Source: Liolophura sinensis
Taxonomy: Eukaryota > Mollusca > Polyplacophora > Chitonida > Chitonidae
Assembly (NCBI RefSeq): GCF_032854445.1
Contig: NC_088307.1
Location: forward strand, 23,449,953-23,513,952
Direction of reading: 5' to 3'
Length of the DNA: 64,000 bases
Both the position numbers and the translations under genes were made by a program. The number at the start of each line of letters is the position of its first letter. Positions within the stretch are counted from its first letter, which is position 1. This document shows positions 32,501 to 62,545 of the stretch, one piece after another. The notes beneath the pieces are model-generated. The model did no database searches and had not been told where the DNA came from. It was given only the letters and a program-made list of their open reading frames with translations.

Positions 32501-35500
32501 GACGATCTGTGTCAACTACTAAATGTCTCTTAAAGAAAAAATATGTAAACAAACTGGAGTATACTTCTTGATATGTGCTGGAATTTGCGAATACTGTCGC
32601 AAATGTAAAAAAATAAATCCATGAATATTCTCAGTTGTCATCAAAAAATGTAGTACGCCCATATGGAACCCTAAAACAGAATAAGAGAAGGGAGGCTAGC
32701 CTTTCGGCAGTATCGCATATTATGCTTGCAAGATTTTTTTCCCTTTAGTGACTTGTCTGTCCCTGATTAATGCTAGTCTGGTAATCATAAATATATTAGT
32801 CACTCTTTGCTAATATCTCTCAATATGGCAACGCCCCACAGCCTTGTTTGATGAATTCAATTTCATTTGCTTTCTTATGGTAAAGTAAAACATATTTGTT
32901 AATGATGGTATGAAAGGGATCATATCAAACCCAGTTCTCTTCTTTTGCATATATACGACCGTGATAGTATTCTTAGAATAATGCCATTCTCTCGACTTAG
33001 CAAACAGTTTTTGGGGGTTTTTGATTTCACAATTAGTAGTTTTCCGTTTCCGTTTTTTTTCTTTTTAATGTAAAGAGGAGTACTTGCATTTTTCAGCACT
33101 TAAGTATCAGCACTAACTCTCCGTGAACAAAAACTTCTCTCCATGATCTACAGTGATAACATTCTGTTTCACAAGTTTGGGAAAATTTTTTACTCCCGCC
33201 CCAAACGACACCCACCCCAACTCCTGACTAACGCGCTTTATCTTTCCCTATTTAAAAATATTTTTTTTTTCATTTACATTTGAAAGGTGTCTCACTACCG
33301 GTTTTCCATATCCTGGCCACGTGTCATCCCGGACCCCGTGGAAGGCAGTATAAACCCCGCAGGAATAGCCTATTACAACAATCTCATCGACGGTTTGCTG
33401 GAGGCAGGCATTCAGCCAATCGTAACGATGTATCACTGGGATTTACCTCAAACCCTGCTGGAAAAGTATCTAGGATGGATCAATCCGGTAATAGCAGACT
33501 ATTACATCAAGTACGCCGACCTCTGCTTTCGAACTTGGGGGAATAAGGTAAATATATTGTAGCCGAATGCTGATTGACTATCATCTCGTCAAAATAGTTC
33601 GTTCCAACGTCCATTCATCGCACACATTCATAGATTTTTATGTATATGCATTAATATTTTAACTATCTGAACCAGTGAGTTCCTTTGTGACATTTAAAAA
33701 TCAATATTGATTACTTATCATCAAAACTATCAAAACTCACGTGTTAACATATATTTTATAGGTCAAATGGTGGATAACGTTCAATGAACCTTTGTCGTTC
33801 ATCCAAGATGGTTTGGGGACGAACACGAAAGCTCCAGGCTGGGCACAGCCGGCCTACTACCCGTATATGGCGAGTAGGACTATGCTGCTGTCACACGCTA
33901 GGGCGTTCCATCTGTACAATGAAAAATACAGAGCAACCCAGAATGGTAAGTCACGCTAGAGCGTTCTATCTGTACAATGAAAAATACAGAGCAACCCAGG
34001 ATGGTAAGTCACGCTGGAGCGTTTCATCTGTACAATGGAAAATACAGAGCGACGCAGAATGGAAAGTCTGATACACGCTAGGGCGTTCCAACTGTACAAT
34101 GAAAAATACAGAGCGACCCAGAATGGTAAGCCTGATATACGCTAGAGCGTTCCATCTGTGCGATGAAAATTGCAAGGCGAGTAGGAATGATAAGTCTGAC
34201 ACACGCTAGAGCGTTTCATCTATACAATGAAAGATGCAAGGCGACCAGGAATGGTAAGTCTGACTCAAGCCAGGGCGTTCCATCTGTACAATGAAAAATA
34301 CAGCGCGACCCAGGATGGTAAGTCATGCCAGGGCGTTCCAGTTGTACAATGAAAAATATAGGGCGACCCAGAATGGTAAGTCACGCTAGTGCGTTCCAGC
34401 TGTACAAGGAAAAATACAGGGCGACCCAGAATGGTAAGTCTGACACACGCTAGAGCGTTCCATCTGTACGATCAAAATGCAAAGCGACCAGAAATGATAA
34501 GTCTGACACACGCTAGGGCGTTCCATCTGTACAATGAAAAATACAGGACGACCCAGAATGGTAAGTCTGACACACGCTAGAGCGTCCTATCTGTACAATA
34601 AAAAATACAAGACGAGGTGAAATGGTAAGTCCGTCACACGCTAGAGCGTTCCAGTGGTACGACAGATGCGGTGAGACTCCATCTGTACGACTGACCGGCC
34701 CCGATAGCTCAGTTGGTAGAGCGTCCGCTTCGGGAACGGTAGTTCCAAGGTCAATCCTGGGTCAGGTCACACCTAAGATCTTTTATAAAGCTGTAACCTC
34801 GCTTCGTGTTCAGCATTAAGGGGATAGTGCAACGACTTGTTGACCCGTATCAGTATAATGCCTCGGGCGGTGCAGCTTACTTGCCTTCAGTAAGTTGTCT
34901 CAGTGGAGCAGCACTAGCTAAAAGAGCGGTGGAAATCCGTCCTGTAAAAGTTCGCCACACGCCAGACTACGACTTATACGTACAAATACAGGGCAATTCA
35001 AAACGGTAAGCCCGCCACACACTAGAGTGTTCCATGTGTGCGACAAGAACAGAATTACTCAAAGTTACACCCAAGATATTCAACCTCTACCACAGTGTAA
35101 GTCTAAATAAAACCAAACAACAACGACAAATACAGGGCGACGCTAAATGTAAATAAGTCTGTCCCACACTACAGCGTTCCATCTGCACAACTACAAACAG
35201 AGGGTAAATGTTAGGTGGTAAGCTTGGAACACGCCATAGGGTTCAGTTTGTACAACGACACGTAAACGGTGACTAATAAGTCAGTTACACACTACTGCTT
35301 TCAACCTGCGCAAGAATGGAAATCTTACTGAGATATGCAACCATGCAAAAGAGGATATCTGCACCTGCAACGGGTCCGTTATCGAGCTTTTTGATGTTTT
35401 AAAAAAATAAATAACTTCACCATTTCGCTGCGTATGCAGGCCATATACTTTTATGACTTATAACAGGCCTGTAAGTGGGAAGGTCTGTCAGCAATCTGCC

Positions 35501-38500
35501 AGCGGATGGTCGTGGGTTTCCCCCCAAGCTCTGCCCGGTTTCCTCCCACCATAATGCTGGCCGCCGTCGTATAAGTGAAATATTCTTGAGTACGGGGTAA
35601 ATCACCAATCAAATAAATTAATAAATATAACAAGCCTTCATGAAATTAGTATGTGGACATGGGAACATCTTGACAGTAATGGTCTACAACCGTGTGGCCC
35701 TCTACCAATAAGGTTGTGAGTTCAAATCCGGCCCTTGCTGCTGCTTCGGCTGCAGCTTTAAGTCAAAAGGTTTAACATCCAACTAGCAAAGTCGGTTGCT
35801 CACTTCAGGCACCCCGGTTTCTTCCATCCATATAGGCCTAACCCAAACGAAAAATTAAAAATCTTGAACACTGCGTTAAACAAAAAGGAGATATGTTACC
35901 ATAGTAACGCCCTTTTTTAAAACTTTGTACATTTCTCAAGGTCGGCTGGGCGTATGCTTTGCTACAAAATGGATGGAACCAAAGAACGCGAGTGACCCGG
36001 CTGACGTCATGGCGGCTGATCGCGCTCAGCAGTTCTCCACGGGCTGGTTCGCTCACCCAATCTACGGTGCTGGAAATTACCCACCAGTGATGAAGGAACA
36101 GGTTGCCAAGAAGAGCCGATTGCAGGGGCTGCCCAAGTCACGCCTGCCAGAGTTTACCCAAGACGAGGTCGCTTACATCAAAGGTAAAATGTCGGGTTAG
36201 CATGCTAATCGCCACTCAGCAGCGCCAGTTCCAAAACGTATAAACTTCCACAAAATTGTGTAAAACATGATATGAAGTCAGTCTCGTGTTTTAGACTGGC
36301 AGTGATTGGTCCATATTTCCTTTTGTCAACCGTACATTGATTTAAAATAGGTGATGTTCTAAAAAGTAAACGTAATATATCAATGGTTTTCTGTCTGTAG
36401 TAATTTTAAGCCCCCTAAGTACTACGTAGCCTCTCTTCTTATCTCATTCTTTGACTGGGTGCAATGAGCTTGTTTAAATGCCAGTACTCACATGATTTCT
36501 TGGACAGGAACTATTTCCTGTTAATGAACTTTCTCTCGGTTGTGGGACGAATTAGAGGTAAATTATGTTCTCTTCATAAGGAAGCGCCATGGAGGGCGGC
36601 TTTTGGCGCGCTTTGGCCTGGCAACAGGACAGTTCTTTTCTGCTAAGAGTTTTTTTGTATGTAAAATATATCTGGACATCCGCACGGGGTGATTTTTCCA
36701 GAAAATTTGGCCAAACAGGTTATTATTTGAAATGGTTCATATGGTTTATCTCTGAGGGAGGGGAGTGGGTAGTTATGTGGGGTGCACTTTGTGTCATGAT
36801 GAAGAGGATCTCTCAGGGAAACTTGTTGTTATCTGTTTCACACCTGATATGTTGTTACGTGTTTCACACCTGATACGTTGTTATCTGTTTCACACCTGAT
36901 CTGGTGTTACCCTTTTCACACCTGATATGTTGTTACCTGTTCACACCTGATATGTTGTTAGCTCTGTCACACCTGATATGTTGTTACCTGTTTCACACCT
37001 GATATGTTGTTACCTGTTTCACACCTGATATGTTGTTACCTGTTCACACCTGATATGTTGTTGGCTCTGTCACACCTGATACGTTGTTACCTGTTCACAC
37101 CTGATATGGTGTGACCTGTTTCACACCTGATATGTTATGACCTGTTTCACACCTGATATGTTGTTACCTGTTTCACATCCTATATGTTGTTACCTGTTCA
37201 CACCTGATCTGGTGTTACCCTTTTCACACCTGATATGTTGTTACCTGTTCACACCTGATATGTTGTTAGCTCTGTCACACCTGATATGTTGTTACCTGTT
37301 TCACACCTGATATGTTGTTACCTGTTTCACACCTGATATGTTGTTACCTGTTCACACCTGATATGTTGTTGGCTCTGTCACACCTGATACGTTGTTACCT
37401 GTTCACACCTGATATGGTGTGACCCGTTTCACACCGGATATGTTATGACCTGTTTCACACCTGATATGTTGTTACCTGTTTCACATCCTATATGTTGTTA
37501 CCTGTTCACACCTGATTTGTTGTTCCCTGTTTCACATCTAATATGTTGTTACCTGTTTCACATCTGATATGTTGTCACCTGTTTCACACCTGATATGTTG
37601 TTACCTGTGTCACACCTGATATGTTGTTTCCTGTTTTACACCTGATATGTTGTTTCATGTTTCACATCTGATACGTTGTTATCTGTTTCACACCTGATAT
37701 GTTGTTATCGGTTTCATACCTGATATGCTATTACCTGTTTTACACCTGATATGTTGTTACCTGTTTTACACCTGATATGTGTCACACCTGATATGTTGTT
37801 CCCTGTTTCACACCTGATATGTTGTTACCTGTGTCACACCTGATATGTTGTTTCCTGTTTTACACCTGATATGTTGTTACATGTTTTACATCTGATACGT
37901 TGTTATCTGTTTCACACCTGATATGTTGTTATCTGTTTCATACCTGATATGCTGTTACCTGTTTTACACCTGATATGTTGTTACCTGTCTTACACCTGAT
38001 ATGTTGTTACATGTTTCACATCTGATATGTTGTTACCTGTTTTACACCTGATATGTTGTTACATGTTTCACACCTGATACGTTGTACGTGGATACACTAG
38101 GTAATATGTATTATACTCATTGTTACTCAACCAGACTAAAACAGCGGTTGTCGTGTTTCTACTCCAGTAATGAGTTGTGTCGTTTCTTACACTCGGTCAC
38201 GAAGTATAATAAGAGAACTTAACTTTCTCCGTGAACCATAGTTTTTGACATAAAATATTTAAATTCTCATTCTTTTTCTTTCTCTGCATTGCTGGTATGC
38301 GCTGGTATGCGCTTGTGACGTGCTCTGTATGAACTGATTCACACTTTTTTTTTTTTCTACGTCATTCATAATCTTTAGCATAAACTTTTCCCCCACCTCT
38401 GTGCACCTTTATCATTTATTTCCATGTTAAAGGTACATACGACTTTTTCGGGATGAATTACTACACAACCAGGCTAGTACAGAACAAGGACAGAGGACTG

Positions 38501-41500
38501 AAGGACCCGGGCATCTACGGGGATTCCGACTCCTTGCAGAGCGTCGATCCGTCCTGGCCCAAGTAATACCATTACCTTGGCCCAAGTAATATCATCCAAG
38601 TAATACAACTGTCCTGTTCCAAGTGATACAATTGTCCTGGGCCAAGTGATAGCGTTATCCTGGCCCAAAAATACCACTGTTCTGGTATCCTTACCCAAAT
38701 AATATCATCATCTTGGCCCAAATAATACCGTTATCGCAACCCAAGAAATACTATTGTCCATAATAATACCATTTCCTGGTCCAAGTAACACCATTATCCT
38801 GGTCCAGAAAATATCATTGTTCTGGTTCAAGTAATACCATCGTTTTGGTCAAATTAATACCATTTCCTGGTCCAAATAACACCATTATCCTGGTCCAGGA
38901 AATGCCATTGCTCTGGTTCAAGTAATACCATCGTTTTGGTCAAATTAATACCATTTCCTGGCCCAAATAACACCATTATCCTGGTCCAGAAAATACCATT
39001 GTCCTGGTTCAAGTAATACCATTGTTTTGGTCAAATTAATACCATTTCCTGGTCCAAGTATCACCATTATCCTGGTCCAGAGAATACCATTGTTCTGGTT
39101 CAAGTAATACAATTATCCCTGCTCAAGTAAAACCATTGTCCTGGCCCAAGTAAAATCAACACCCAGGCGCAGGTAATTATTCTGGCCCAAGTAACATCAT
39201 TGTCCTGGCCCAAGTCATGTCATTATGTTGGTCCAAGAAATAACGTTATCCTGGTCCTAGTAATTCCCTTTATCCTGGTCCAAAAATACCATTGTTCTGG
39301 TCCAGGTAATACAATTATCCTGGTCCAAGTAATATTATCATTCTTTTCCAAGTAATATACATTTTCTAGACCAAGTAATACCATTGTCCAGGCCAAGTAA
39401 TCCCACTATCCTTGTCCAACAAATATCGCTATCCTGGTCCAAATAATACCATTGTTTTGGTCCAAGCAATGTCATTATTTTGGTCCAAGTAATATCATTA
39501 ATCTGGTCCAAATAATACCATTGTTTTGGTCCAAGTAATACCATTATTTTGGTCCAAGTAATATCATTAATCTGGTCCAAATAATACCATTGTTTTGGTC
39601 CAAGTAATACCATTATTCCGGTCCAAGTTCTAGTAATACCATTATCTTGGTCCATGTAATACCATTATCCTGGTCCAAGTAATATCATTATCCTGGTCCA
39701 AGTGATATCATCCTAGCTCAAGTAATACCATCATACTGACTCAAGTAATATTAGTCTTCTGGCCCTAAGCAATGCCATAATCTTGGTCGAAGTAATATCA
39801 ATATCAAGGTCCTGATTCAGGTAATATCATCTTCCTAACCCAAGTAATTCCATCAACCTGGTTCAGGTACATGTAATACCATTACCCTGGATCAAGGGAT
39901 ATCATCAATTTGGCTTAAGTAATATCACCATCCTAACCCACGTAATACCATCATTCTGGTTTAAGTACATGTAATACCATAACCCTGGACCAAGTGATAT
40001 CATCACACTGGCTCAATTCAAGTAATATAACTTTTTCTGGCCTTATCAATGCCATAACCATGGTCGAAGTAATATCAATATCAAGGTGATCGTAATCCCA
40101 CAATATTATTTTCCTGATTCGGGTAATGCGATCATCCAAACCCAAGTAATACCATTATCCTAACCCAAGTAATACCATCATCCTAACCCAAGTAATACCA
40201 TCATCCTAACCCAAGTAATACCATTATCCTAACCCAAGTAATACCATCATCCTAACCCAAGTAATACCATTATCCTAACCCAAGTAATACCATCATCCTA
40301 ACCCAAGTAATACCATCATCCTAACCCAAGTAATACCATCATCCTAACCCAAGTAATACCATTATCCTAACCCAAGTAATACCATCATCCTAACCCAAGT
40401 AATACCATCATCCTAACCCAAGTAATACCATCAACATGGATCAAGTAATGAAATCATCCTGGATTATTTCTCTGCCAAGTATGCTGTTTTGTTTTATAGA
40501 AAGTTAGCAGTTACATATTTAATATGGAATTATCACTAAAAACATCATTTGCAGATCTCCTTTGAACTGGTTGTATGTTGTACCATGGGGCTTCCGGAAA
40601 ATGGTGAATTGGGTGACGTCACAATATGGCCGCCAAGTGAAAATCCTCATCACGGAAAACGGCTACGCTGATGGGACTGGGGAAGTGGTAGATGATTTCA
40701 GAATTGAATTCTACAAAAATTATATCGATGAGCTGTTGAAAGGTAGATTACCTTTTTTGTGTCATTGATTACTTCGTCTTATTTAAATCTGTTCCGGGTG
40801 ATGAATTCTTAGATTCAGATTCTTAGGCTTCAGGCAAATTTCGTAAACCTTGTCACTTTAATTGACAACATATTTTAAGAAGAGAGGTATGTAGGCACAG
40901 ATAAAGTAAAGAAAACACTAGTGTGAACTAAATGTCGAGTGAAAGCACATTAAACACTGTCCCAAAAAAAATAGCCCGACTGATTTATTTTTAACCTAGA
41001 AAAATGCAATAGAAACGTTGGATTCTACGGTGGCCTTTTCTGACCATACTGGGTCCAGTGACGTCACATCAGTTTTTTTTGGCCACATAACACACACCGG
41101 CTGCTAAATTTAATCATTCAAAATGCATATACATATACATGTATGAATGCATTCTCCAAATGGACCTCTGGGTCACTACAGATCTCCGTAGAATTGGATG
41201 TTTTAAAACCACTTTACTGGGTTGGAAAAACTCTAAAAAAAATAAACTAGTTTCCTGGTTACTGTTAAGTGGTCTTTTATCTGATATGTGCTTCGTTTTT
41301 GTGTTTTCTTTGCCTTTAAGTCCAAAGCCGATATGGTGTGATTTTCAGCCTTGTGTTAAAGATAAAGAATGGAGCTCTGAACATTGTTTATTGCAGCTAA
41401 GATTCACTTTGATTTAAGCAATGCTTTTGTATTATTTCTAGTTAGGGTTAGCAACATGCCAAGCTAGTCTATGAACATCACTATCTTGGCATATTGTGAA

Positions 41501-42234: not shown

Positions 42235-42390
42235 TTTCGCTTCTTATCCTGTAGCACCCAGCATGAGCCCATAGGATAAGCACTTGTCTGACCATCGTCA
42301 GTATCCATTGGATGGGTGAGGTGTCAGGTCTGGTGTCTTTAGCATGACGTTCTAGTGAAGAGGCATAGGGACCCTGCACAAGGAGACTTT
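42235..42390 (+). mobile_element. SINE-C fragment between the GH1 genes
   Basis: Shares CAGGTCTGGTGTCTTTAGCA with the copy at 55228. Confidence 0.45.
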
Positions 42391-43403: not shown

Positions 43404-43440
43404 TCAGTATCCTACAGAAGCGTATACAGCAACGGTAGCA

Positions 43441-43630
43441 ATGAAGTTTACCAGGAGCTGTATTTTGGCGCCCCTGTGCTGTGCCGCGCTCTTGGCGCCA
43501 ATCCTCACAGCAGCGTCTACGGCTAGAGAGGATGAGGACGGCGACTTTTACTACGGTCAGTTCCCAGAGGATTTCATCTGGAGCACGTCCTCAGCCTCTT
43601 ACCAGATAGAGGGCGGATGGAACGCTGATG
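43441..43630 (+). CDS. GH1 copy 2, exon 1
   Basis: ATG, signal peptide, then [20 protein letters not shown]. Donor GATG|GTACGT is identical to copy 1. Confidence 0.9.
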
Positions 43631-45557
43631 GTACGTTCATGCCGACCGTCATGTAAATTTACTCGTACACTCAAAAAACTTAAACTGTTAATTTTAACAC
43701 AAAGTATGTTGTGTGATTAATGGTAGGATGTATTCTGTCATTATAACATAATACTGTGTCACATTCAACATAATATCTTCTCAGTCTAATAGAATCTTTA
43801 TGTTGAATTAATAAAATATGCGTGTGATATCTAACAGAATAATCTGTTGCAATAGCAGAATACATTCTGGCATCACTCAGACAACAGACAGTTAAAATTA
43901 ACAGATTACTTTGTTGAGTGTACTTTAATACTCATGAATCTTTAGTGGGTAATTACCGTTCAGTTTAAATACATGCAACACGTTTCGTCCAGTCACTTAT
44001 TAGATAGAAGACATGTAAACCAATCGAAATATCGGTTTTAAGCCGTATATTGCCACGGACATACGATTGCATTCGCGACAGGTCGTCCTTTAATTCCGAG
44101 AATGGGAATTACCTAAATGCGATTGTTTAACGCATGTTCCAACGTTCCACACACCAGGGAAGGAGTAATTGCTGATTAGGTGGATTGACAGGGTAGAAGA
44201 TGATACGGGTAACGCAGGTGCGTTGGAGACACCTGACGCCCGCGTCAAACGCAATTGTATGTCCGCGGAAACACAGTATGAAGTGTGCACCGCAGATATA
44301 CGACATGGAACAACATGTGACTCAAGATGTGCTGAGAGATTTCATTTGATCTAGGCTTCCAAAAAGACACTCGTATATCAATCGTTAACCATAATGGACG
44401 TTGCGGGTCAATGACCCGACCATTTTCCAAAATAACGTTCAACACAAACCAGCAAGGAAAGGACACATAGACAGAAATTTAGGATAGCCCAACACTCAGG
44501 TTTCGAGATACCACGTTCACTAGGACAACAGAGTGACGTCCCTTTATATCGTGAAGCCATCGCCTTACGACTTTGGCGGCACGAACTCGCCCTGTCAAAA
44601 GTAAGAAAACACAGTATATCTTCACACACCTAATACATAAATAGTCTCAAAAAATAATCTGTTAAGTTTAACAGAAAGTCTTATCTGAGTTAAGCTAGAG
44701 TATATTGCAGCAAATTGTTCTATTAACACACATATTCTATTAATTAAACACAACAATAGACTAACTAGATACTTTCTTAAATTTAACTAATTAATTTTTT
44801 GAGTGTACGATCTACCTAAGGATTACGGACCCAGGAAATATTCGTTTTTTACTAACTGTTTGCAGGGAAAGGCTTAAGCATCTGGGACTTGTTCACGCAC
44901 GAGACAGGGAACATCGCCTTTAATGAGACAGGGGATGTGGCCTGTGATAGCTACCATAAGTACAAAGAGGACATAGCGCTGATGAAGAAACTAGGGGTGA
45001 GGCAAGGTTCATCTCTGATAACTGTTTGTTTATTTCATTAGTGTTTCACGGCGTACTCAAGAATATTTCATTTCGACGAAGGTAACCAGCATTATGGTGG
45101 GAGGAAACCGGGGGAAAACAACGACCACCCGCAGATTGTTGCCAGGCATCACCAGAGAGGAGACCGCATGGGCTAGGCTTGAACTCAAAGCGACCGCAAT
45201 TACACATGTATATGAGAAATCTCTGAGTAATTGTGCTACGCTAACACGCTGACCACTCCTCCAAGGAGCCTCCCTGGCTCTAACAGAAGTGAGCAGTAAC
45301 TTCCAAAGCGGTCTGTTCCATCACAAAAAGATTTTTACCTAAAGAAAAACTAAACTTTTAGTATGCGTATTATGACAGGTCTGTCAACGAAGTATTGTTT
45401 TCCATTCAATCATTTAAACAACAATGCGCTAAATATATTTATATTTTAGAATTATATACAGTTTGAGTTGAATTAATGTTAACTGTTTTTCTTCTTTAGG
45501 TTTTTGTTGTATATGGGGATGGGTGTTAAATTTACTAAATTAGTTAAATTTAAATTT

Positions 45558-45644
<87 letters not shown>

Positions 45645-48600
45645 TTTATAGTTTTAGGCCCTATCTATCTTTACTAATCACGTTACAATGCGTGACAAAT
45701 CGTTTTCTTAACTTCCATCGCTTTCATTCTTCAAGGTATCTCACTATCGGTTTTCTATATCCTGGCCACGTGTCATCCCGGACCCCGTTCTGGGCGGTGT
45801 AAACCCCGCAGGAATAGCCTACTACACCAATCTCATCGATGGTTTACTGGCCGTCGGCATTCAGCCAATCGTCACCTTGTATCACTGGGATTTACCTCAG
45901 TCCCTGCAGAGCACAGATCAAGGTTGGATCGATGGGGTCATGGCTAGTTACTATGTGCAGTACGCGGATCTATGCTTCCGGACTTGGGGGAATAAGGTAA
46001 ATTCAACCATTAAATCAGAACGTTCGTGGAACCTGACACACATTTACATTTTTTAGTATGTGGGATAAAGCAGTTTATCAATCCAAGTAGATTATAGGTC
46101 ATTGGTCGATCTTAATTTTATGTGGGGTCCTCCGAGGCAGAGATTGTTAGCGTACCAACGCGGCGCAGTGACATAAGAGCCTCTCACCAGTGAGGTCTGC
46201 ATGAGTTCAAGTCCATCTCATGCTGGCTTCCTCCCCGGTCGTATGTGGAAAGATCTGTCAACAACCTGCGGATGGTCATGGGTTTCCCCCTGGCTCTGCC
46301 TGGATTCCTCGTAATGCTGACTTCCGTCATACAAGTTAAATATTCTTGAGTACAGCGTAAAACACCAAATAAGTAAATAAATAAATAAATAAATAACTTT
46401 ACAACAACAACAACAACAAAAGTTTTCGTAAACCACTTCAGTTATATCAAGAAATAAGACCCTTAGAGTTCTGCTCGTATTCAAGTTGCTACCAGTTATT
46501 CCTCTCTAGGAATATTTATTTGATTTGTGTTTTACGCCGTACTCAAGAATATTTTCACTTATACGACGGCGGACATCATTACGAGTATCAAAGTTTGACA
46601 CAAACAAAACAAATAGTAGCATGGGGAGTACATCTCCAAAAAGTTTCTGTCATCAGATACTTTCAGAACAACACTTTTTCATATTTAGCTGTTGATGTGT
46701 AGCTGTTTTTGATGCCAATGTGGAATTCGTTTATTTAGTGTGGTCCTTGTACTTTATCTCTGTATAATTGTGATATACAGAACACTTGTAGAGAAAATAC
46801 CCCATATAATGTATGGGATCGGGAGACTATGCCATCTACTTATCGATGTGGGGGTCGAATCCACAAAACAATTTCTGACTGTTTTCTCTGACTGTGACAA
46901 GTGAACATGTGACATACGAAGCTTATTGTCTGCTGTTAAAAATTAAATTTTGTTATCTTAAGACAAATGTGTCCAAATTGCTGCTTCCAGTTCCAAATAT
47001 TAAGCATCCTAAAGAGTTTTAAAATTTCGACATAAGCCAACAACGGTTTTGTAGAATCGACCCGTTGTTCTTTTCGTTACAGGTCAAATTCTGGATAACA
47101 TTTAACGAGCCAGTTTCTTTCATCCAAGGCGGGTTGGGTTCGAGGTCCAAAGCCCCAGGCTGGAACCAACCAGCTTCTCTCCCTTACTTGGCCAGCAAGG
47201 TGGTTCTCTTGGCCCATGCTAGAGCCTGGCATCTCTACAACGATACCTACAGAACCACTCAGCATGGTCAGCAAACGTCTGTTCATAGTTAAGGGCTTGC
47301 ATGTTCCCGCGCGCATTGGCGACTCGAGTCCAAGCTGCATTGTTTGAACTCTGCTCATACAATGTAGAGTATGATCACAATTACACAAATAGGAGAAGTG
47401 TAACAAACTCTCTACGCTCAAAAAAATTAATCTGTTAATTTTAACAGAAAGTCTGTTCCTGAGTGATGCTAGAATAGATCCTATGATTATAACATTATGA
47501 TAACACTGTCAAATTCAACATAATATCACTAAGCTAGCATCGCGTCATCGCTTCGTGCCATCGTATTGATTTTATTAATGTTGTGGATTTTGTGTGACAG
47601 TTTGTCCACTTAACCTATTTAGGTCGCGTCGGCATGTGTTTTGGTACTTGGTGGATGGAACCTTTGAACTCAAGTAATCCCGATGACGTCATCGCCGCTG
47701 AGCGAGCCCAGCAGTTCGACGTCGGTTGGTTCGCTCATCCCATATATGGCGCTGGGGATTATCCAGTGGCCATGAAGGAAGCCGTGGCCAGAAAGAGCCG
47801 AGAACAAGGACTGAATAATTCTCGCTTACCAGAGTTAACTGAGGAGGAAATTGCCTACATTAAAGGTAAGAAAATATACCGCCCGACGATGGCACGATAG
47901 TACGAAACAATGGACACCATGTCCCATCATTTTGTGTCATCGTGGCATCGATTCTCCATCACCCCATCGCTTCATACCATCGTCGGTCGATGGAAAGGTG
48001 AAACGATGCTCCGATGATGACCTTACCTGGTGTTCATAGAACAAATATCAATATAATAAAAGACTTACAGTATAGAGTGTATAATTATGGCGATGATGAC
48101 ATGGTGATAGTTGCCACACGGTCAAAAGTAACGGGTGAAATAAGCCCTTTTGTCAATTTACCTCAGTTACGGTTTCAGTCTAACTGAAACGGCTGAAATA
48201 TAACTAATGTGGCATAATAACCCATGCAGTCTTGCAGAGTAACTGTTCATGCCAATGCATAAGCACTAGCAAACTGGCTTTTGCAGAATTAGATAAAAAT
48301 GCAGTGGTGTTAATGGCGACTTATTAGATGTCACTGGTCTACACAAAATTAAATCTCTCCATTTATTTGCATTCAAACGCCTGTACATTAAAGGACTTAT
48401 TTTACGTAACCCTAAATTTACATTCTGATAAAAGGCTAGATGTGAAAATAAACTAAAGTACAGTAGTTTTAATACAAACATGTTATATTTACAGCCAATA
48501 AATGAATTTTCATAAAATGATATCTAAAACTAGCTTAGAAACACACAAACACAAATAATTACAATAAAAAAGCCCTTGACAAGGGTAAAGTTTCTTCTTC

Positions 48601-51600
48601 AGCACCAAGTATTCCTCGCACATATAGGACAAAGAAATGAAAAAAGTTGTTTACTTGTCTCACTCTACAGAATATAACGCAATTCTATATGACATGTGTG
48701 TCAGTTTGACGCATACTGCTAATAAACAAATAAATATTTTTTGTCAATGTATTTTTATGGTACGGATGCTAATGTTAATATATATTATAAGAAATTGTCT
48801 GAGATATCAATCCGTGTTTGGCCGAACTGTCAATACCAGCACTGAAGTAAATATTTAGTCTACGTTCCTTCACTACTCTGTCCATCTATATAGTTCACTA
48901 GAGCCATCCACCTCACATCAGTCATACAAATGTGTCCGATTCTAATGCCACTTGTCTACTACCGCCCTACGTCCAATCGTGTAAGCTTTCATAAAGGGGT
49001 TGTCGCCGTTCGACCAATCACATAAGCCGGTACAAGTGGTAGGGATCTGACGTCCTCGCCTGATGGGCTATCTGTTTTCAGCGCAGATTCACTGTATATT
49101 GCGGTGGATGAGGAGAATGAAGAATAAACCCACCGCTGTGCTGAGTATATTATACATGTATTGATCTTTTGCTATAAATCTGTGGTTGAAAATAAAACTG
49201 TTATGTTAAAGTTTATTTCTTAGCGTAAGGCATCAGATAGTCTCCCCCAGAAAATCGCCTGATGTTCCGGATCAAAGTTCCATTTTAAAAAAGTGATCTT
49301 GTGCCAGAGATTTCTAAGCGCCCTCGGCATCTGGCGAACCGGAATTTCCTCCATCAGCACACACACTATGATGTCATCTCTACCCTCGTCCAAGCATTTC
49401 ATGCCAGCGTATTCAATTTCAAGGGGACCGTAGGTCGAATCCAAGAAATGCGTGCTGATAATCAGTAGGACTTTACGACTTTGCCTAATGTTGTCCACGA
49501 TGTTCTCGTGAATCGGTCTTCCAGGTAAAAAGTCTCTGTCGTGGATGCATAGCTTGAAAGGATCCTCATGTAGCTCGAGTTTTGGTCGTAACTGTTGTTT
49601 TACCCACTCTCTATCCTCATGGGTGTAGGCTACAAAAGCGTTGAAGACGTACTCGACACCAGAAAACATGTCTTTCGGAGGCTTCAGTCTCGTGTACAGC
49701 CAGTACCTTAGATTTAAACGGTAGCGATACATTCCTGCCAGAGACAAAATTAAGATCAAACTCGTAGAAATTGCCACCACTGATATTATTATGTAAGTGG
49801 AACTAACGCAATTGACTTCGAAATTTCTCATGTCTCTCCTAAATTTGTAGATCGCCAATTGTGATCCGTTGGACAGAAGGCACGTGTAGTTGTCTGGATG
49901 ATCTAGGTTTATTTTCCTCAAAACAATCCAGCGGATAAACAAAACGGTGTCGCAAGTACACTGTATAGGATTCCTAGCCAGGATCAGCGAGAAAGGATCT
50001 TGTATCCTGGCTCTGGTGATCCAACCATCAATCAACGCCATTTCGTCACTCTGGAGGTAGGTAAAGGCATTGGCGGATAAGTCCAATTTCTTTAGTTGGG
50101 CGATTTGGAACAAGGCCTTGGGAAGACGGTTCAGCTTGTTATTCGCCAGATTGATTTTCATAAGATTTCGATTGTCTTGAAAAAGGCGTGGGTGCAGTTC
50201 GGTTATTTTGTTGCCGGATAGGTCGATGCTCTCCAAGGTATCAAGTAGGTCAAAATATGTCAGTGAAGAACTTGAAAAGTCCAACCCGTGAGAATTTGAC
50301 AAGGAAAGTTTCTTTAATTTTCGTAAATGAAGGAAGAAATCCCTGCTCATGCGCGAACATCTTATTCCTGACAGGTCGATTTCAGTTAAATTGTCAAGGC
50401 CTTTAAGCATGGGGCCTCTACAGTTACCAAAGTTGTTATACGCAATACTGAAAGACCGAAGATTTTTCGCGTTAATAAAAGTAAAAGGTTTACTCAGATA
50501 TAACCTAACGGATATTGCAGTTAGGTCAAGTTTTTCTAAAGACGCCGGAACAATCAAATCGTGTACGTCGTAGCCTAGTCTCTCCTGGTATTTACGCGAT
50601 TGAAAATAGTACCCATCGTCATCCTGAGGAAAACCAAAACCGTAGCTTAGGTCCAAAGACTTCAAAAATATTGATCTAACACACATGCGAATTAAAAAAG
50701 GTGGAGGATAACATCTCAGTGAATGAAACGACATGTTAAAATTCTCTAGACAATAGTATAATCGATCTCCAGGAAAATCCTCAACAGAATTGATGAAATT
50801 TTCAGACAAATCCAATGACTCTACGCACAAATTGGACAAGATTTCCATACTATTTCGGTTTAGCACGAAATGTGCGCCCTCAGAACAGCTCCCGTTGTTA
50901 ACGCGTGGCAGCTTAATTTCTTTCATGGTTCGATTGTGAAAAGAATGTAACAAACTTACAGCTTGGTTAAGTCCAAGCCCGAAGTTGGTTGAAATATCTA
51001 AGGTATTTAACGAGGTTAACGGTTCAAAGGTGGCTGTTTCAGTATAATCTATGTTACAGTTGATAAGTCGTAGCTCCTTAATGTTAAGTCCACGTAAGCT
51101 ACAAAACGTGGAATTCCGCAAAGCTCTAATTTCACAGGAATTACTTCTGTACTCTCTTCCCGCCGTAGAAATCGTCGTTAATTTGGAAAGCGCGCGAAAT
51201 CTTTCTCCGAAGACAAAGTCGCGGGGGAAGTCAATATACAATCGTCTTAAATTTTCTAGTTTCCCAAAAGCGGCATCTACACCTTTCCACTTTGATGTCG
51301 TCATGGGGACGATCTCTTGAATGCGTATCTCTTCCAGAGACACCAGAGGCTCGAACAGCTCTGGCGTGATCACATCTGAACTGAGATGAACGTAATTGCC
51401 CGAAAAATTCAAGGTGACCAAATTGTCAAGTCCTCGAAATGCTTTTGAACCCAGGTCCGTTATATTATTGTACGACAGATCCAAATACTTCAGCCCCGAC
51501 GATTTCGAAAATTCTCCGCCTGTTATTTTCTCTATTGAGTTGTGGCTAAGATCGATTCCCTGGGAATCGTTAAAGTGGGGGTTTTCTGCAGGCACAAAAA

Positions 51601-54600
51601 AGAGTCCACGCGAGCTGCAGTTTAGGAAATTCAGGGATGTGTAGAAGTCACAAGGCCGACCAGCCACTGCGGAAACACCTAAGCACATTAACAAGACGAT
51701 CATCATTTCCTGAGGCGCACTGCGCACACCCATGGTGTCACTTCTGCCGCTGCGTTCCTGTAAAACCAGAGGACACGAATTAGGAAATGAAAAAACTTAG
51801 CAAATTGAGAAAACCGCGTTCACATTGCATGTGCGAATTGTCGTATTGGAAGAGAGCTCTGGTTGATCACCTATCAGCAACTAGCATGATGCCACTATAA
51901 CTTCAGTAATGGTTACCATGATAGTTACTATCAACTTGCCCAGCTTTGATTGTACAACACGTTGCCTTGGTTACTGTAAGCATAAATCATTATAACTTAA
52001 GTAACTGGTTACAATCGTAGATACAATCAACTTTGTCCAAGACAGCTTTGTTTTTAAAACGTGCTGTTTTGGTAGTTATACAATCAGCTTATAACACGGT
52101 GTGTAATTGTTGCCGGGGTAGTTATGACCACAAAACGTCTAGAACACTATTCAGCATAAATACTTGCGATTCAGTTTTGTAGCTGAACTTTTAAGTGGAG
52201 AAGGCAGTATATGCTGAATACACCCCCGTAGTTCCAGATTATCCTCCAGCCAGCCTTGAGCACCAAGACAGTCCTCAGTTCGTAAGTCCTCATATACATA
52301 GCTGCAAATTGATGTGATTTTATATGGATGAGAGTCTTATTTTTAAACCATTTTCGTCATTTTACTGTGTCGTCTGCTTCGTGATTTTTTGGCGTCAAAT
52401 TACATTCTGCAACGCTGATAGCTGTCGATGTCAAACTATATGACTGCCTGGCAGAGGCGTACAAAGTCTACATGGACCACAGGCCACCAAAAATATGAAC
52501 AGCCGACAATCCATTTTATTTCGGCATCAATTACGAAAGAAAAGCTTGCAGTAATGTATGGTACAAATACCAACCAATGGGAGAGCACACCCTAAAAATC
52601 AATTATGAAAACCATGGCACGATCGAACTTACCTGGCCGTTTTACAAACCACAGTGTCCGCAAAACAACATGTAACCGTCTTAATCATGCTGGCGTAGCT
52701 CCCACGACTATTATGCAACTCACTGGCCACAAAAATGTTGCAAGTAGAAATAATTACGCTGTTTTTTTTCTCATGGTACGCAGGAAAAGATGAGCCACAT
52801 CATTTCAAATGCACCAGTCACACAGCCTTCCGCTGCGAGCGCAACTCTTCCTCCCCAACCCAGGACATCCACAGAAATTGATGCAACTGTCCCATCATCT
52901 TCTAAAGTACAGAATGATCTGTTTGTTTTACAAAATTTCACACACAATGTAAACCATGCCACTAGAACATGTACAATTACCGGTATTTTCCAGGGTGCAT
53001 CCTTCTCAAATTGCACTTTCCACCTCAATTTCTGCCACGGATCAACTGCCCATTAACTTTGTTGACAAACCCTTTCAAGAACTCACAAAGACTTCAGCAA
53101 ATTTAGAGAACTTTCAGTCATCCACATGTAATTAAATCACTTCTTCACTTCCAAAATTGGTGGTTGACCTGATTTTTTAGCGCTCTTTACAGTCGGTATA
53201 CTGAATTTCAAAATGCCACTTGTCAAGTTTGAGATGACGTTTATATAAACGTTACAGTTCTTGCATTCAGATAGCATCTGTGTTTTGAAAAGCCAGCTAT
53301 ACTTACTTGATGTTGTATAAATAATATTTCCACGGTTTTTCGAGTCTTTGTTTTATTTTATTTTCTGTGTTTATTTTTTTTTAAACCACTGTTTGTGTCT
53401 TCTGCGGTAATTTGAAATATGCTATAGTTAGAACGAAATCCATGTGCGCGTAATAGTTTGTGAGCGTCATGGCGGACTGTGCACTGCCAGACACTGTGCG
53501 CTAAGCAAAGTAGTCTGAAGAAATATCTGGATTTTATGCCCCCCATAGTAGTGTCAATAGAAGATATATGATAAATAGATTATCATTACACTGTGCAGAT
53601 CTGCATCGTCGTATCTGCCCTCGTTCTCTGCTGTTGCATCGCCGTATCGACCGGGATACGGCGACGCAACCGCAGAGAACTCGAGCAGATACGACGATGC
53701 AGATCAGAGCAGTGTGATGATAATCTCTATGAAATTAACATCACTGCATTTTTTTAACCTAATTCTATTTAAGCCATAGTGCTAGGGGTTGTCTTATGTT
53801 CTACTATTTAGGCATTTACACCAACAGTTAGAATAAAACCCTAACTGGGGTAAATTGAAGAGAAGCCCTATATTTCTCCGCTTATGTGTGACCATATGCC
53901 TGTTAACACACCGTCGTCGTACCTCTGGTTTGACTCTCTATACCATAAATCCTTAATTGTACGTATAGTCATTTCTAATGGGTGTAAATATACGTAGACA
54001 TTGTGACAGGTTTATTTATTTGCAAGTGGCGTCACTTCAGACACCATTGTACTACAGTTTCTTATTCCGCTTCCTGCAGTTGTTTTAAACCTGTAGGCAC
54101 CCATTCTTTATTTGCATGCATATGTGCAAATGCTTTTGTATTAAACAACTATTTCCTCATGAAGTTTCAGTTTCCTTAGAAACTATAGTATATCATTTCA
54201 TAAATATTCTTCACAAGGAGATAATTAACCTCTAATGTAGAGCACATTTCGAGAGTAATAAATATAAGTGCAGCATATGTGATCATCAGCAGGAAATAAA
54301 ATCTGTGAACAGGTATAGGAAGGATAGGCGGAAGTGAGATATATGAAGTTCTCGGGTTCGGAAACTGAAACAAAATTTGTTCCGGGATCAATCCTGGGTC
54401 GAGTCACACCTCGAGTCAGCATGAAGGGGATAGGGCAACGACTGGTTGACCCGTATCAGTATAATGGGTCGGGCGGGGCGGTTTACTTGCCTTCGGTAAG
54501 TCGTCGCAGTGAAGTAGCACTAGATAAAACAGCGGTGAAAATCTGTCCGCAACAAGGAGGTGCACACCCTAAGGATACCTTCGTCATCATATGACTGAAA

Positions 54601-56095
54601 AATTGTTGACCCCAAGCACTGACTCACTCACTCGTTGCTTATATGCCATGTACCATGAATTTGACTGGGTCATGTCTTGACAGTTTAGCTTTGCTGTTTT
54701 TTTGTTAAAGAGAAATACCTGTAAGTGCATTGTTATGTACTTATAATATAAAAGACTACAGTGCAGAGAATTTAACCAGAGCACGTCCGTTTCCCCCGGG
54801 CTCTCTCCCCAGTTTCCTCTCACCATTATGCTGGCCGCCGTCGTATAAGTGAAATATTCTTGAGTACGGCGCAAAACATCAGTCAAATAAATAAATAAAT
54901 AAATGAATAATACAAGAGCAGCTGTGATAGTGCCATAGCTGGCAAATGGTCACACGTTACCGTTGAACTCAGTTTACCTCAGTTAGGGTTTTATTCCAGA
55001 CACTGAAACCGTTCTTTTAAGTACTTAAACTGTCAGGGCAATTTATAAAACCGCCAGCCCCATAACGTGGGCAGAGTTAAGTAATTTGAACTAAAACATG
55101 CAGTGATGTTAATTGCGATTATTACTCATCTCTTGTGAGTTAACTGACTGTTTACTGTGTCCAAGTGCTGAATTCCTGTGTATGGGTTGAATATACTTGT
55201 ATCATCAAAGTTTAATTAAATCATCATTATGACCGCTTTGGTAGTCTACAGTTAAAGCGTCCACCTAAAAGTCGGGAGATCTCGGGATCAAAACCAGGTC
55301 AGGTGATACCAAAGACTATCAAATAAATGGTACTTGCTGCTGCTTCGCTTGGCGCTGTGCATTGAGAGGTTAGAGCAAAGAAACTTCACTGATTAGCCCG
55401 GTGTCAGTATAATGTGACTGTGTGGGGTGTCATGTCTGGTGTCTTTAGCATGTTACTTCGCAGTGGCGGAAGCACTTTAGAGGCATGGACTCGCCCTGCC
55501 ACATGTCACGAGAAGTCCCAGTATATGTACACACCTAATGATTCCTTGTCGTCGTGTGACTGAAAAAGTGTTACGTATAAGCTGCGACGTAAAACCTCAA
55601 GCATACATACATACTTCTAGTGCTTCATAAATACTGTAATACTTGTTGGTACTTGTAATTCTCTATAACACTAAGACAGGTACTTATTCTGCATAATTCA
55701 TACTCTTGCAGGTACTTCCTCTCTATAATTCGTGCTCTTGTATGTACTTCCTCTCTATAATTCGTACTCTTGTAGGTATTCCCTTTCTATAATTCGTACT
55801 CTTGTAGGCAGTGCCTCTCTATAATTCGTACGCTTGTAGGTACTGCCTCTATATAATTCGTACTCTTGTAGGTACCGCCTCTATAATTCATACACTTATA
55901 GGCATTGCCTCTCCATAATTCGTACTCTTGTGAGCACTTCCTCTCTATAATTCGTACTCTTGTAGGTACTTATGACTTTTTCGGCCTGAACCACTACACA
56001 AGCAGACTCGTCCGGTACAAGGATAACGGGATCAGCAATCCTGGATACTCCGGAGACCAGGACACCGAGATGATTGTCGACCCCTCCTGGCCTAA
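43441..56095 (+). CDS. Secreted family 1 glycoside hydrolase, copy 2; exons 1-6 seen, exons 7-8 not found
   Basis: Tandem paralogue of the gene ending at 41773. Exons: 43441-43630, 44866-44996, 45736-45996, 47083-47266, 47623-47865, 55966-56095, with the same lengths (190, 131, 261, 184, 243, 130) and phases as copy 1. It has a signal peptide ([14 protein letters not shown]), Gln55 (SASYQIEGG), His157 (LYHWDLPQ) and the acid/base Glu in TFNEP. The frame is open through all six exons, so it is not an old pseudogene up to that point. Intron 5 is 8.1 kb against 2.2 kb in copy 1 and contains an antisense Toll-like receptor. From 56096 to the window end I see no TENG or NFEW exon. The gene therefore either continues past 64000, across the methyltransferase exon, or has lost its C-terminal third including the nucleophile. 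Confidence 0.85.
43666..43923. mobile_element. Palindromic MITE (family M), GH1 copy 2 intron 1
   Basis: Terminal inverted repeats TACACTCAA...TTGAGTGTA with internal mirrored GTTAATTTTAAC / GTTAAAATTAAC. Same family as the copy at 31332-31592. Confidence 0.75.
44345..44500 (-). repeat. R1 fragment, GH1 copy 2 intron 1
   Basis: AAGACACTCGTATATCAATC, AACGTTCAACACAAACCAGC. Confidence 0.45.
44540..44640 (+). mobile_element. SINE-C 3' fragment, GH1 copy 2 intron 1
   Basis: ACTCGCCCTGTCAAAAGTAA, CACAGTATATCTTCACACAC aligned with the 3' half of SINE-C. Confidence 0.35.
44642..44817. mobile_element. Palindromic MITE (family M), shorter copy, GH1 copy 2 intron 1
   Basis: Starts TAGTCTCAAAAAATAATCTG and ends TTAATTTTTTGAGTGTA; the right arm is partly deleted. 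It lies 48 bp before exon 2. Confidence 0.65.
44866..44996 (+). CDS. GH1 copy 2, exon 2
   Basis: Acceptor GTTTGCAG, donor CTAGGG|GTGAGG. Encodes [20 protein letters not shown]... to LMKKLG. Confidence 0.9.
45025..45275 (-). mobile_element. SINE-A, nearly full, GH1 copy 2 intron 2
   Basis: Starts 28 bp after the exon 2 donor: GTTTATTTCATTAGTGTTTC, GGTGGGAGGAAACCGGGGGA, then CTAACACGCTGACCACTCC at the tRNA-like head. Confidence 0.7.
45563..45642. repeat. (AT)n microsatellite in GH1 copy 2 intron 2
   Basis: About 80 bp of pure alternating AT, self-complementary and able to extrude a cruciform. Confidence 0.97.
45736..45996 (+). CDS. GH1 copy 2, exon 3
   Basis: Acceptor CTTCAAG, donor AATAAG|GTAAAT. 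Encodes [20 protein letters not shown]... and [11 protein letters not shown] pure (AT)n tract lies about 95 bp upstream in intron 2. Confidence 0.9.
46125..46398 (+). mobile_element. SINE-A, nearly full, GH1 copy 2 intron 3
   Basis: GGTCCTCCGAGGCAGAGATT head through TTGAGTACAGCGTAAAACAC and a long (AAAT)n tail. Confidence 0.7.
46515..46586 (-). mobile_element. SINE-A tail fragment, GH1 copy 2 intron 3
   Basis: TATTTGATTTGTGTTTTACG to ACTTATACGACGGCGG; opposite in orientation to the copy 120 bp upstream. Confidence 0.6.
47083..47266 (+). CDS. GH1 copy 2, exon 4
   Basis: Acceptor TTTCGTTACAG, donor CAGCATG|GTCAGC. Encodes [15 protein letters not shown]... to [18 protein letters not shown]. 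The intron after it has no junction-derived array, unlike copy 1. Confidence 0.9.
47413..47528. mobile_element. Half MITE (family M), GH1 copy 2 intron 4
   Basis: Only the left arm (TACGCTCAAAAAAATTAATC ... GAGTGATGCTAGAATAGAT) through ACATAATATCAC is present. Confidence 0.6.
47623..47865 (+). CDS. GH1 copy 2, exon 5
   Basis: Acceptor CTATTTAG, donor ATTAAAG|GTAAGA. Encodes [20 protein letters not shown]..., [20 protein letters not shown] and [14 protein letters not shown]. Confidence 0.9.
48065..48340 (+). repeat. R2 element, GH1 copy 2 intron 5
   Basis: ATGGTGATAGTTGCCACACG, TGTCAATTTACCTCAGTTAC, AATGCAGTGGTGTTAATGGC. Confidence 0.55.
48341..49211. other. AT-rich DNA downstream of the TLR, within GH1 copy 2 intron 5
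   Basis: No reading frame of note and no repeat recognised. Confidence 0.45.
49212..49217 (-). terminator. Poly(A) signal AATAAA after the TLR stop
   Basis: The minus strand reads TAAGAAATAAAC: canonical AATAAA two bases past the stop codon. If used, the 3' UTR would be extremely short. No other strong signal was seen close by. Confidence 0.45.
49220..51733 (-). CDS. Toll-like receptor, uninterrupted 837-residue coding region
   Basis: Type I membrane pattern-recognition receptor. Residues 1 to about 25 are a signal peptide ([16 protein letters not shown]). An LRRNT-like cysteine patch follows (PCDF...LNCSS), then leucine-rich repeats to about 585 (for example [19 protein letters not shown] and [19 protein letters not shown]). 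A single LRRCT at about 588-642 has [15 protein letters not shown]. The membrane span is about 647-667 and the cytoplasmic TIR domain about 698-837. TIR box 1 is [15 protein letters not shown], box 2 [14 protein letters not shown] keeps the BB-loop proline, and box 3 is IFW. One juxtamembrane cysteine cluster places it with single-cluster (vertebrate-like) TLRs. The start ATG is in a strong context (CACCATGG). The gene lies antisense inside intron 5 of GH1 copy 2. Ligand unknown. Confidence 0.96.
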   Translation of the reverse strand: MGVRSAPQEMMIVLLMCLGVSAVAGRPCDFYTSLNFLNCSSRGLFFVPAENPHFNDSQGIDLSHNSIEKITGGEFSKSSGLKYLDLSYNNITDLGSKAFRGLDNLVTLNFSGNYVHLSSDVITPELFEPLVSLEEIRIQEIVPMTTSKWKGVDAAFGKLENLRRLYIDFPRDFVFGERFRALSKLTTISTAGREYRSNSCEIRALRNSTFCSLRGLNIKELRLINCNIDYTETATFEPLTSLNTLDISTNFGLGLNQAVSLLHSFHNRTMKEIKLPRVNNGSCSEGAHFVLNRNSMEILSNLCVESLDLSENFINSVEDFPGDRLYYCLENFNMSFHSLRCYPPPFLIRMCVRSIFLKSLDLSYGFGFPQDDDGYYFQSRKYQERLGYDVHDLIVPASLEKLDLTAISVRLYLSKPFTFINAKNLRSFSIAYNNFGNCRGPMLKGLDNLTEIDLSGIRCSRMSRDFFLHLRKLKKLSLSNSHGLDFSSSSLTYFDLLDTLESIDLSGNKITELHPRLFQDNRNLMKINLANNKLNRLPKALFQIAQLKKLDLSANAFTYLQSDEMALIDGWITRARIQDPFSLILARNPIQCTCDTVLFIRWIVLRKINLDHPDNYTCLLSNGSQLAIYKFRRDMRNFEVNCVSSTYIIISVVAISTSLILILSLAGMYRYRLNLRYWLYTRLKPPKDMFSGVEYVFNAFVAYTHEDREWVKQQLRPKLELHEDPFKLCIHDRDFLPGRPIHENIVDNIRQSRKVLLIISTHFLDSTYGPLEIEYAGMKCLDEGRDDIIVCVLMEEIPVRQMPRALRNLWHKITFLKWNFDPEHQAIFWGRLSDALR
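51734..51759 (-). other. Likely 3' splice site and 5' leader just before the TLR start codon
   Basis: Read on the minus strand, GGTTTTACAG|GAACGC lies 24 bases before ATG, a pyrimidine-rich AG acceptor. This suggests a 5' UTR intron, with the promoter and first non-coding exon upstream (above 51760). The whole coding region would then be one exon. Confidence 0.5.
51890..52085. repeat. Imperfect direct repeat upstream of the TLR
   Basis: Two ~90-bp segments (about 51895-51980 and 51992-52080) share TATAACTT.AGTAA.GGTTAC, TA.AATCAACTT and AAC.CGTTG-like words in the same order. They lie in the presumed 5' intron or promoter of the receptor gene. Confidence 0.35.
52395..53060 (+). mobile_element. 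Crypton-type tyrosine recombinase remnant
   Basis: Consecutive pieces in different frames: VYMDHRPP, then [12 protein letters not shown]...[13 protein letters not shown], then (52605-52793) [11 protein letters not shown]...[17 protein letters not shown], then a tail with [17 protein letters not shown]. The H-x-x-R (NHSVRK), GH (LTGHK) and Tyr (NNYA) positions of the recombinase core are visible. A stop and at least two frame changes break the gene. The same domain family was domesticated in some vertebrate proteins, but nothing here suggests use. It lies in GH1 copy 2 intron 5, upstream of the antisense TLR. Confidence 0.7.
53577..53726. mobile_element. Long inverted repeat (72-bp arms, 6-bp loop), probable foldback MITE
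   Basis: Left arm 53577-53648 and right arm 53655-53726 are near-perfect reverse complements (AGATTATCAT...ATGATAATCT at the outer ends, GCCGTATC/GATACGGC at the centre), with loop GACCGG. The arms are GC-rich in AT-rich surroundings. The transcript of either strand would fold into a long hairpin. Confidence 0.8.
53735..53965 (-). repeat. R2 element, GH1 copy 2 intron 5
   Basis: AACATCACTGCATTTTTTTA, TTAAGCCATAGTGCTAGGGG, CACCGTCGTCGTACCTCTGG. It directly abuts the long hairpin. Confidence 0.55.
54385..54638 (+). mobile_element. SINE-B, 5'-truncated
   Basis: GGATCAATCCTGGGTCGAGT to ATGACTGAAAAATTGTTGAC and CACTCACTC. Confidence 0.7.
54745..55135 (+). repeat. R2 element carrying a nested SINE-A
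   Basis: ACTACAGTGCAGAGAATTTA and AACCAGAG before the SINE, ATAGCTGGCAAATGGTCACA and ACATGCAGTGATGTTAATTG after it. Confidence 0.55.
54783..54905 (+). mobile_element. SINE-A fragment nested in an R2 element
   Basis: TTTCCCCCGGGCTCTCTCCC to GTCAAATAAATAAATAAAT. It splits R2 sequence: AACCAGAG before, GAGCAGCTGTGATAGTG after. Confidence 0.7.
55228..55612 (+). mobile_element. SINE-C, near full length, GH1 copy 2 intron 5
   Basis: tRNA-like head CCGCTTTGGTAGTCTACAGT, core GGTGTCATGTCTGGTGTCTT, 3' end TCGTGTGACTGAAAAAGTGT and a short (ATAC)n tail. Ends directly before the acceptor-derived minisatellite. Confidence 0.65.
55640..55965 (+). repeat. Exon-6 acceptor minisatellite (~32-bp units) in GH1 copy 2 intron 5
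   Basis: About ten units of TCTCTATAATTCGTACTCTT then GTAGGTACTTCC (28-32 bp). The last unit contains the true acceptor, CTCTTGTAG|GTACTTATG. Each unit has a pyrimidine-rich run, AG and the first exon bases GTACT. Confidence 0.9.
55966..56095 (+). CDS. GH1 copy 2, exon 6
   Basis: Acceptor CTCTTGTAG, donor CCTAA|GTAAGT. Encodes [20 protein letters not shown]... to VDPSWPK. The acceptor is the last unit of a ~32-bp tandem array. This is the last exon of the copy I can place. Confidence 0.88.
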
Positions 56096-57545: not shown

Positions 57546-57549
57546 TTCA

Positions 57550-62540: not shown

Positions 62541-62545
62541 GAAAA

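Follow-up and report, generated by a model that had tools for sequence, protein, structure and literature searches.

Three minisatellite arrays in a tandem pair of GH1 (beta-glucosidase-like) genes of Liolophura sinensis each contain an exon–intron junction of their host gene. We analyzed a 64,000-nucleotide stretch of contig NC_088307.1, referred to as the window. Comparison of the repeat units with the exons suggested that the arrays are probably products of minisatellite growth, in which the founding duplications crossed the junctions and were tolerated because the outermost copy splices. An initial annotation had placed three arrays at splice junctions of this gene pair, two at donors and one at an acceptor. 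TRF and the homology gene model agreed with that placement for arrays 1 and 3, and for array 2 it was supported by the unit alignment. The features are listed in Table 1, where a caret marks the splice junction.

Table 1. Genes, junction arrays and control repeats in the window
Feature	Position	Strand	Description
Gene A	29325..41773	+	Complete GH1 (beta-glucosidase/klotho-like) gene, 8 exons, 509 aa; homology model and PF00232
Gene A exons 1-4	29325-29514, 30419-30549, 33287-33547, 33762-33945	+	Homology gene model
Gene A exons 5-8	35941-36183, 38433-38562, 40555-40742, 41571-41773	+	Homology gene model
Gene B	43441..56095	+	GH1 paralogue, 6 exons seen; homology model and PF00232
Gene B exons 1-3	43441-43630, 44866-44996, 45736-45996	+	Homology gene model
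Gene B exons 4-6	47083-47266, 47623-47865, 55966-56095	+	Homology gene model
Array 1	33888..34653	+	64/58-bp units; TRF (64)
Gene A exon-4 donor, authentic	33945..33946	+	ATG^GTAAGT, within the first array-1 unit; homology model
Array 1 continuation	34654..35202	+	Partial copies at 34984-35010, 35016-35053 and 35159-35202, past the SINE-like segment
tRNA-derived SINE-like segment splitting array 1	34711-34947		Rfam tRNA match at 34698-34769
Array 2	38552..40481	+	23-bp units TCCTGG(T/C)CCAA^GTAATACCATTA; own unit alignment
Gene A exon-6 donor, authentic	38562..38563	+	CAA^GTAATA, within the first array-2 unit; homology model
Array 3	55678..55971	+	32-bp units ctctctataattcgtactcttgtag^GTACTTcc; TRF (32)
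Gene B exon-6 acceptor, authentic	55965..55966	+	TTGTAG^GTACTT; homology model
26-bp array, gene A intron 2	31657..31840		TRF; control, no junction contact
26-bp array, gene A intron 5	36824..38085		TRF; control, no junction contact
28/56-bp array, about 110 bp downstream of the last gene B exon seen	56205..56410		TRF; control, no junction

The host genes

The two GH1 genes lie in tandem, and both have PF00232 support. Gene A covered the whole profile (E 2.9e-156, profile 3-453 of 453). GH1 proteins carry two catalytic Glu motifs, T-F-N-E-P and T-E-N-G. Both were present in the gene A protein, as TFNEP and ITENG. Gene B, of which the last exons are missing, covered profile positions 3-327 of 453; it contained TFNEP, and the second motif would fall in the exons not found. 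Gene B shared 73% identity with gene A over 379 aa, and exons 1-6 had equal lengths in the two genes (190, 131, 261, 184, 243 and 130 nt), indicating that no intron had been added.

Exons 7-8 of gene B were not found in 56096-64000 by tblastn with gene A at E values up to 10. The other gene B exons matched gene A strongly, unlike these two. Gene B may be truncated, or it may continue past another gene beyond the window.

PDB relatives, led by 8in1 and klothos, aligned across all three array junctions, so the junction positions rest on homology and not on consensus hunting alone. The best match, 8in1, is possibly from a sea hare, as we assume.

The window held several other features. An 858-codon intronless ORF encoding leucine-rich repeats plus a TIR domain, as in Toll-like receptors, was located at 49223-51796 on the minus strand, within intron 5 of gene B and on the strand opposite to that gene. 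An open frame at 60608-61174 (minus strand) matched the AdoMet-dependent proline di-methyltransferase family PF05891 (E 3.1e-66, profile 38-218 of 218). A 22-bp array of about 27 copies at 9613-10245 gave a minus-strand frame of 211 codons without a stop, which had no Pfam match. A 48-bp array at 22876-23129 overlapped at its edge an interspersed repeat family that also occurred at 12815-13094, 25347-25634 and 53730-53941.

Array 1 copies the end of exon 4 with its donor

Each array-1 unit consists of exon-4 end sequence (58 or 52 nt) followed by GTAAGT. The 64-mer and the 58-mer are thus two forms of one array, the latter without 6 bp. The exon copy occupies 33888-33951, so that 58 coding nt of exon 4 lie inside the repeat, and the 11 full intronic copies were 75-95% identical to it. 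Because the repeated piece encodes a 19-residue segment conserved among GH1 relatives, the exon is taken as the source and the intron as the copies. At the level of sequence, this established array 1 as exon-derived. Eight identical ATG^GTAAGT donors were found within 680 nt, namely the true one and 7 of the 13 distal sites. The array had been described as shorter than it is: partial copies reached 35202.

The SINE-like segment that splits the array was 84% identical to 21916-22158. It belongs to a family of four copies that are 80-87% alike, the others being at 21916-22265, 28336-28684 and 54416-54633, and the copy inside array 1 appeared cut short at its 3' end. A 7-bp flanking match was considered as a target-site duplication around the segment and was rejected, as the four-copy alignment did not locate it at the ends of the element. 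Identity to the exon copy showed no significant fall with distance in array 1 (rho -0.27, p 0.42).

Array 2 includes the exon-6 donor of gene A

Array 2 contained 83 full or partial unit matches, the shortest of 7 nt. TRF reported it as three 23-bp rows (38595-38668, 38756-40449 and 40419-40464), whose edge lies 33 bp inside the intron; the reach to the junction was given by our unit alignment. In that alignment, 38552-38574 was the first unit, matching at 22 of 23 positions and adjoining the next copies. This unit takes in 11 nt from the end of exon 6 together with the donor. Those exon nucleotides code for SWP plus part of K, within a stretch common to relatives, which suggests that array 2 likely also grew from exon to intron.

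The authentic donor, CAA^GTAATA, is weak, agreeing with the consensus at 6 of 9 positions. The exact 9-mer occurred 31 times among the 83 matches, true donor included. GT was kept in 59 of 81 copies (exon copy included) and was absent from the other 22. The most uniform part of the array, 40181-40316, had a pairwise identity of 1.0 over aligned columns and was far from the exon, indicating that the latest growth took place away from the junction. At the far end, 13 nearly identical 23-mers (40142-40431) formed the youngest-looking part. Growth of these two arrays was therefore not visibly anchored at the junction, as the uniform part of array 2 was distant and identity in array 1 was flat with distance.

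Array 3 includes the exon-6 acceptor of gene B

Array 3 consists of about nine copies, each an acceptor-like module with a pyrimidine-rich stretch. The last copy includes 6 nt of gene B exon 6 along with the acceptor of that exon. In the nine intronic copies of at least 25 nt, the acceptor position read TAGG in five, CAGG in two, TATG in one and TGAG in one. AG^GT was present at 5 of the 7 upstream AGG sites. With only 6 exon nt in common, the overlap does not set a direction: the array may equally well have arisen in the intron and reached the acceptor or have been seeded by it. The claim that all three arrays grew from a boundary held for the exon-derived array 1, is likely for array 2 and is one of two equally likely readings for array 3.

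The distal splice sites tested are predicted to lead to early stops

The products of alternative sites were predicted from the sequence. In array 1, all 13 distal sites tested (10 with GT) led to a stop at codon 260; at least 605 nt separate this stop from the last junction. In array 2, all 36 distal AAGTAAT sites led to a stop at codon 381, because the retained sequence reads AAG TAA, which leaves at least 207 nt to the last junction. In array 3, the 7 upstream AGG sites gave a stop at codon 342 (6 sites) or 352 (1 site). The test covered sites of the AAGTAAT type in array 2 and copies with AGG in array 3. None of the tested sites of array 1 (13) and array 2 (36) gave an open protein isoform from a downstream donor.

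Messages whose stop lies more than 50-55 nt before the last junction are subject to decay. By this rule, decay would be expected for the distal products of arrays 1 and 2. The judgement is confined to gene A, since the last exons of gene B were not seen.

The unit lengths 58, 64, 23 and 32 are all non-multiples of 3, as the initial annotation had noted. Three such lengths have a chance of about 0.3, since two in three random lengths are likewise not divisible by 3. The argument that a one-unit slip shifts the frame is true for each unit and has no work to do here, as every alternative product tested has a stop. Because the stop nearly always fell in the first retained stretch, unit length modulo 3 neither protects nor harms.

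Splice-site columns are not significantly more conserved

Splice-site columns were compared with the rest of the unit, using equal-sized circular windows along the unit as the null. In array 1, mean conservation was 0.97 vs 0.89 (11 intronic copies), and 5 of 64 windows were as conserved. The corresponding values were 0.887 vs 0.884 in array 2 (70 copies; 10 of 23 windows) and 0.887 vs 0.912 in array 3 (9 copies; 20 of 32 windows). By this test, none of the three arrays showed significant excess conservation of its splice-site columns.

Among array-1 intronic variants, 13 of 39 were synonymous, with an expected fraction of 0.22-0.37. A first count had a third-position excess (43 changes at codon position 3, 23 at position 1 and 20 at position 2), and coding constraint on this basis was considered and rejected. 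Three of the four differences between exon and array consensus were third-position, and the bias inside the array alone was not significant (p 0.09-0.13). The intronic copies of array 1 thus showed no clear coding constraint.

The 13 annotated donors were also ranked by their longest run of consensus matches. The array-1 donor tied with three others for second place, whereas the array-2 donor was among the weak ones, indicating that strong or weak host sites are not a common theme.

These data bear on a role in splicing control, in which banks of identical donors (gene A) or acceptors (gene B) compete with the true site and the fraction of misdirected splices, all leading to a stop codon and decay, would set the amount of enzyme. 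The identical donors of array 1, the exact 9-mers of array 2 and the early stops from all distal sites tested would suit such a system, and a human minisatellite in IFI6 is reported, in the excerpt of PMC4526556, to use downstream units as donors. Against it, the splice-site columns lack significant extra conservation, more than a quarter of array-2 copies have no GT, the arrays differ between the paralogues, and stops are common in any intron and are thus weak evidence. The control system suggested in the initial annotation was therefore not borne out, and we regard it as quite unlikely. A broader version is very unlikely. It holds that junction-copying minisatellites are adjustable decoy banks that tune paralogue output via stop-bearing products, with repeat-based recursive splicing in array 3 in addition; there, the repeated TAG^GTACTT would regenerate AG^GT, from which another, seamless splice could put a wrong acceptor choice right.

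Overlap of minisatellites with junctions

The chance count was limited to the gene pair, where junctions are mapped. The span 29325-56500 contained 6 minisatellites and 25 known junctions, and 3 of the 6 contained a junction. The null was random array placement (20,000 trials) with a limit on the coding nt inside an array. With 60 coding nt allowed, a fair rule because array 1 covers 58 coding nt, 0.47 overlaps were expected and P(≥3) was 0.0066. Under other coding limits it was 0.0003 (20 nt), 0.025 (100 nt) and 0.38 (no limit). TRF rows with 2-4 base units were left out of the six, at 30817-30867 (also reported as an 18-mer), 45564-45640 and 46367-46396. When these three microsatellite-type rows were added, P was 0.019 for 3 of 9 (60-nt rule). 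With TRF's own edge for array 2, P was 0.067 for 2 of 6 (60-nt rule). As the span and the arrays were chosen post hoc, the true surprise is smaller than these P values. The excess of minisatellites on junctions is suggestive, not strong.

Each of the 25 junctions was also represented by a junction-spanning 45-mer and matched against at most 1000 bp of the intron it borders; 1000-bp segments elsewhere in the window served as the null. Neighboring self-copies stood out at 3 of the 25 junctions, and the other 22 had no clear adjoining copy. The gene B intron-5 donor had a weak match at 0.041, which is the chance level for 25 tests. The value for the gene A intron-6 donor, 0.008, is conservative, as the null windows took in the far part of its own array. 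In the same comparison, the homologous junctions of the other paralogue had no neighboring copies, indicating that the arrays are gene-specific; each overlaps an exon–intron boundary in one paralogue and not in the other.

Three further minisatellites of the span touched no junction (Table 1). In the array of gene A intron 5, which has about 48 copies, periods of 52 and 154 bp were also present.

The initial annotation had stated that junctions of this pair repeatedly seed minisatellites. This stood in a modest form, for 3 of 25 junctions with a post hoc P of 0.0066, and was weakened by the value obtained with the TRF edge and by the 22 junctions without copies. A stronger version, that junctions are real hot spots of minisatellite birth in the genome, DNA-level or transcription-linked and whatever their later function, would explain the overlap at half of the minisatellites. 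The P value rises when microsatellites are counted or TRF's own edge of array 2 is used, the span was picked post hoc, 22 junctions lack a clear neighboring copy, and the three junctions share no common motif (ATG^GT, CAA^GT and TAG^GT). We consider genome-wide hot spots unlikely.

Discussion

The data are best explained by minisatellite growth without a splicing role. Every array would go back to a tandem duplication that arose by chance in a gene pair rich in minisatellites, and three of these duplications would cross an exon–intron boundary. The intronic copies would then multiply and decay as neutral minisatellite DNA. The outermost copy would still join the exon, through the donor next to the exon in the case of arrays 1 and 2 or the acceptor next to it in that of array 3, and the gene would survive because this copy still splices to the exon correctly. 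This reading also predicts that an array that crosses a junction ends with an intact exon copy, because running far into the exon would destroy the exon. The surplus sites would be decoys; use of one would lead to a premature stop, and the message would be expected to be degraded. We infer the neutrality of the copies, the actual use of the sites and the decay of the wrong products.

Neutral growth is favored by the three minisatellites of the span that touch no junction, by the GH1-conserved segment and donor copied in array 1, by the equal lengths of exons 1-6 and the copy-free homologous junctions of the other paralogue, by splice-site columns without significant extra conservation, by the lack of clear coding constraint in array 1 and by growth that is not visibly anchored at the junction. 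Against it stand the 3 of 6 on junctions where 0.47 were expected, the somewhat more conserved donor columns of array 1, and the third codon positions of the same array, which were somewhat richer in variants.

The proposal of junction duplication without intron gain was upheld by the coding segment and donor copied in array 1 and by the equal lengths of exons 1-6. An intermediate of intron gain via tandem duplication of an AGGT segment is a different matter. Array 3 repeats TAG^GTACTT, with AG^GT at most upstream AGG sites, as is needed by the model in the review PMC3443670. The junctions are common to genes A and B with equal exon lengths, there is no sign of a new intron, and AG^GT is absent from the junctions of arrays 1 and 2. 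An intron-gain intermediate is thus extremely unlikely. The AGGT tandem genomic duplication of that review is like array 3 only, and it differs in that the model duplicates the interior of an exon, whereas array 3 duplicates a junction of an intron already in place.

Assemblies often get the size of minisatellites wrong, and an assembly or collapse error might be expected in sequence so rich in repeats. Variation among the units and the SINE-derived segment within array 1 make such an error as the origin of the arrays hardly credible. The copy number of the arrays may be wrong in the assembly.

The arrays resemble cases already described, and there is no sign of a new splicing system. In the human IFI6 (6-16) minisatellite, downstream repeat units are used as donors and encode different IFI6 isoforms, according to the excerpt of PMC4526556; the source cited there and in the excerpt of PMC2572611 is Turri, Cuin and Porter 1995, Nucleic Acids Res 23:1854. 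Like that repeat as excerpted, arrays 1 and 2 hold the authentic donor and offer further intact donors downstream of the exon. Unlike the IFI6 isoforms described there, the distal donors tested here are all predicted to lead to an early stop, and an acceptor case (array 3) is also present.

Human segmentally duplicated genes contain internal tandem repeats, some at exon–intron boundaries of recently duplicated paralogues, with units of about 30 bp on average; PMC2812944 gives 162 boundary alignments before manual filtering and 27 intron modifications after it. Those repeats and ours are alike in being minisatellites at exon–intron boundaries of duplicated paralogues. The human cases in that text have transcript support and novel introns, whereas ours come from genomic sequence and have no new intron.

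In potato RdRp, as outlined in PMC4974935, a tandem duplication across an intron–exon boundary made a new intron. The array-3 duplication likewise crosses an intron–exon boundary and copies the acceptor. In the potato gene as outlined there, a single duplication gave a new intron, whereas array 3 has about nine copies and none was gained. Among the matches listed from open-licence literature, with few subscription journals covered, no paper dealt with this GH1 gene pair or with an array of dozens of donors.

If the excess of minisatellites on junctions held genome-wide, it would show how clusters of splice sites and new introns may result from ordinary repeat growth, with the exon copy as the reference. 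The natural tandem-site arrays in this one gene pair, two of donors and one of acceptors, would offer a test of how the spliceosome chooses among identical neighbors.
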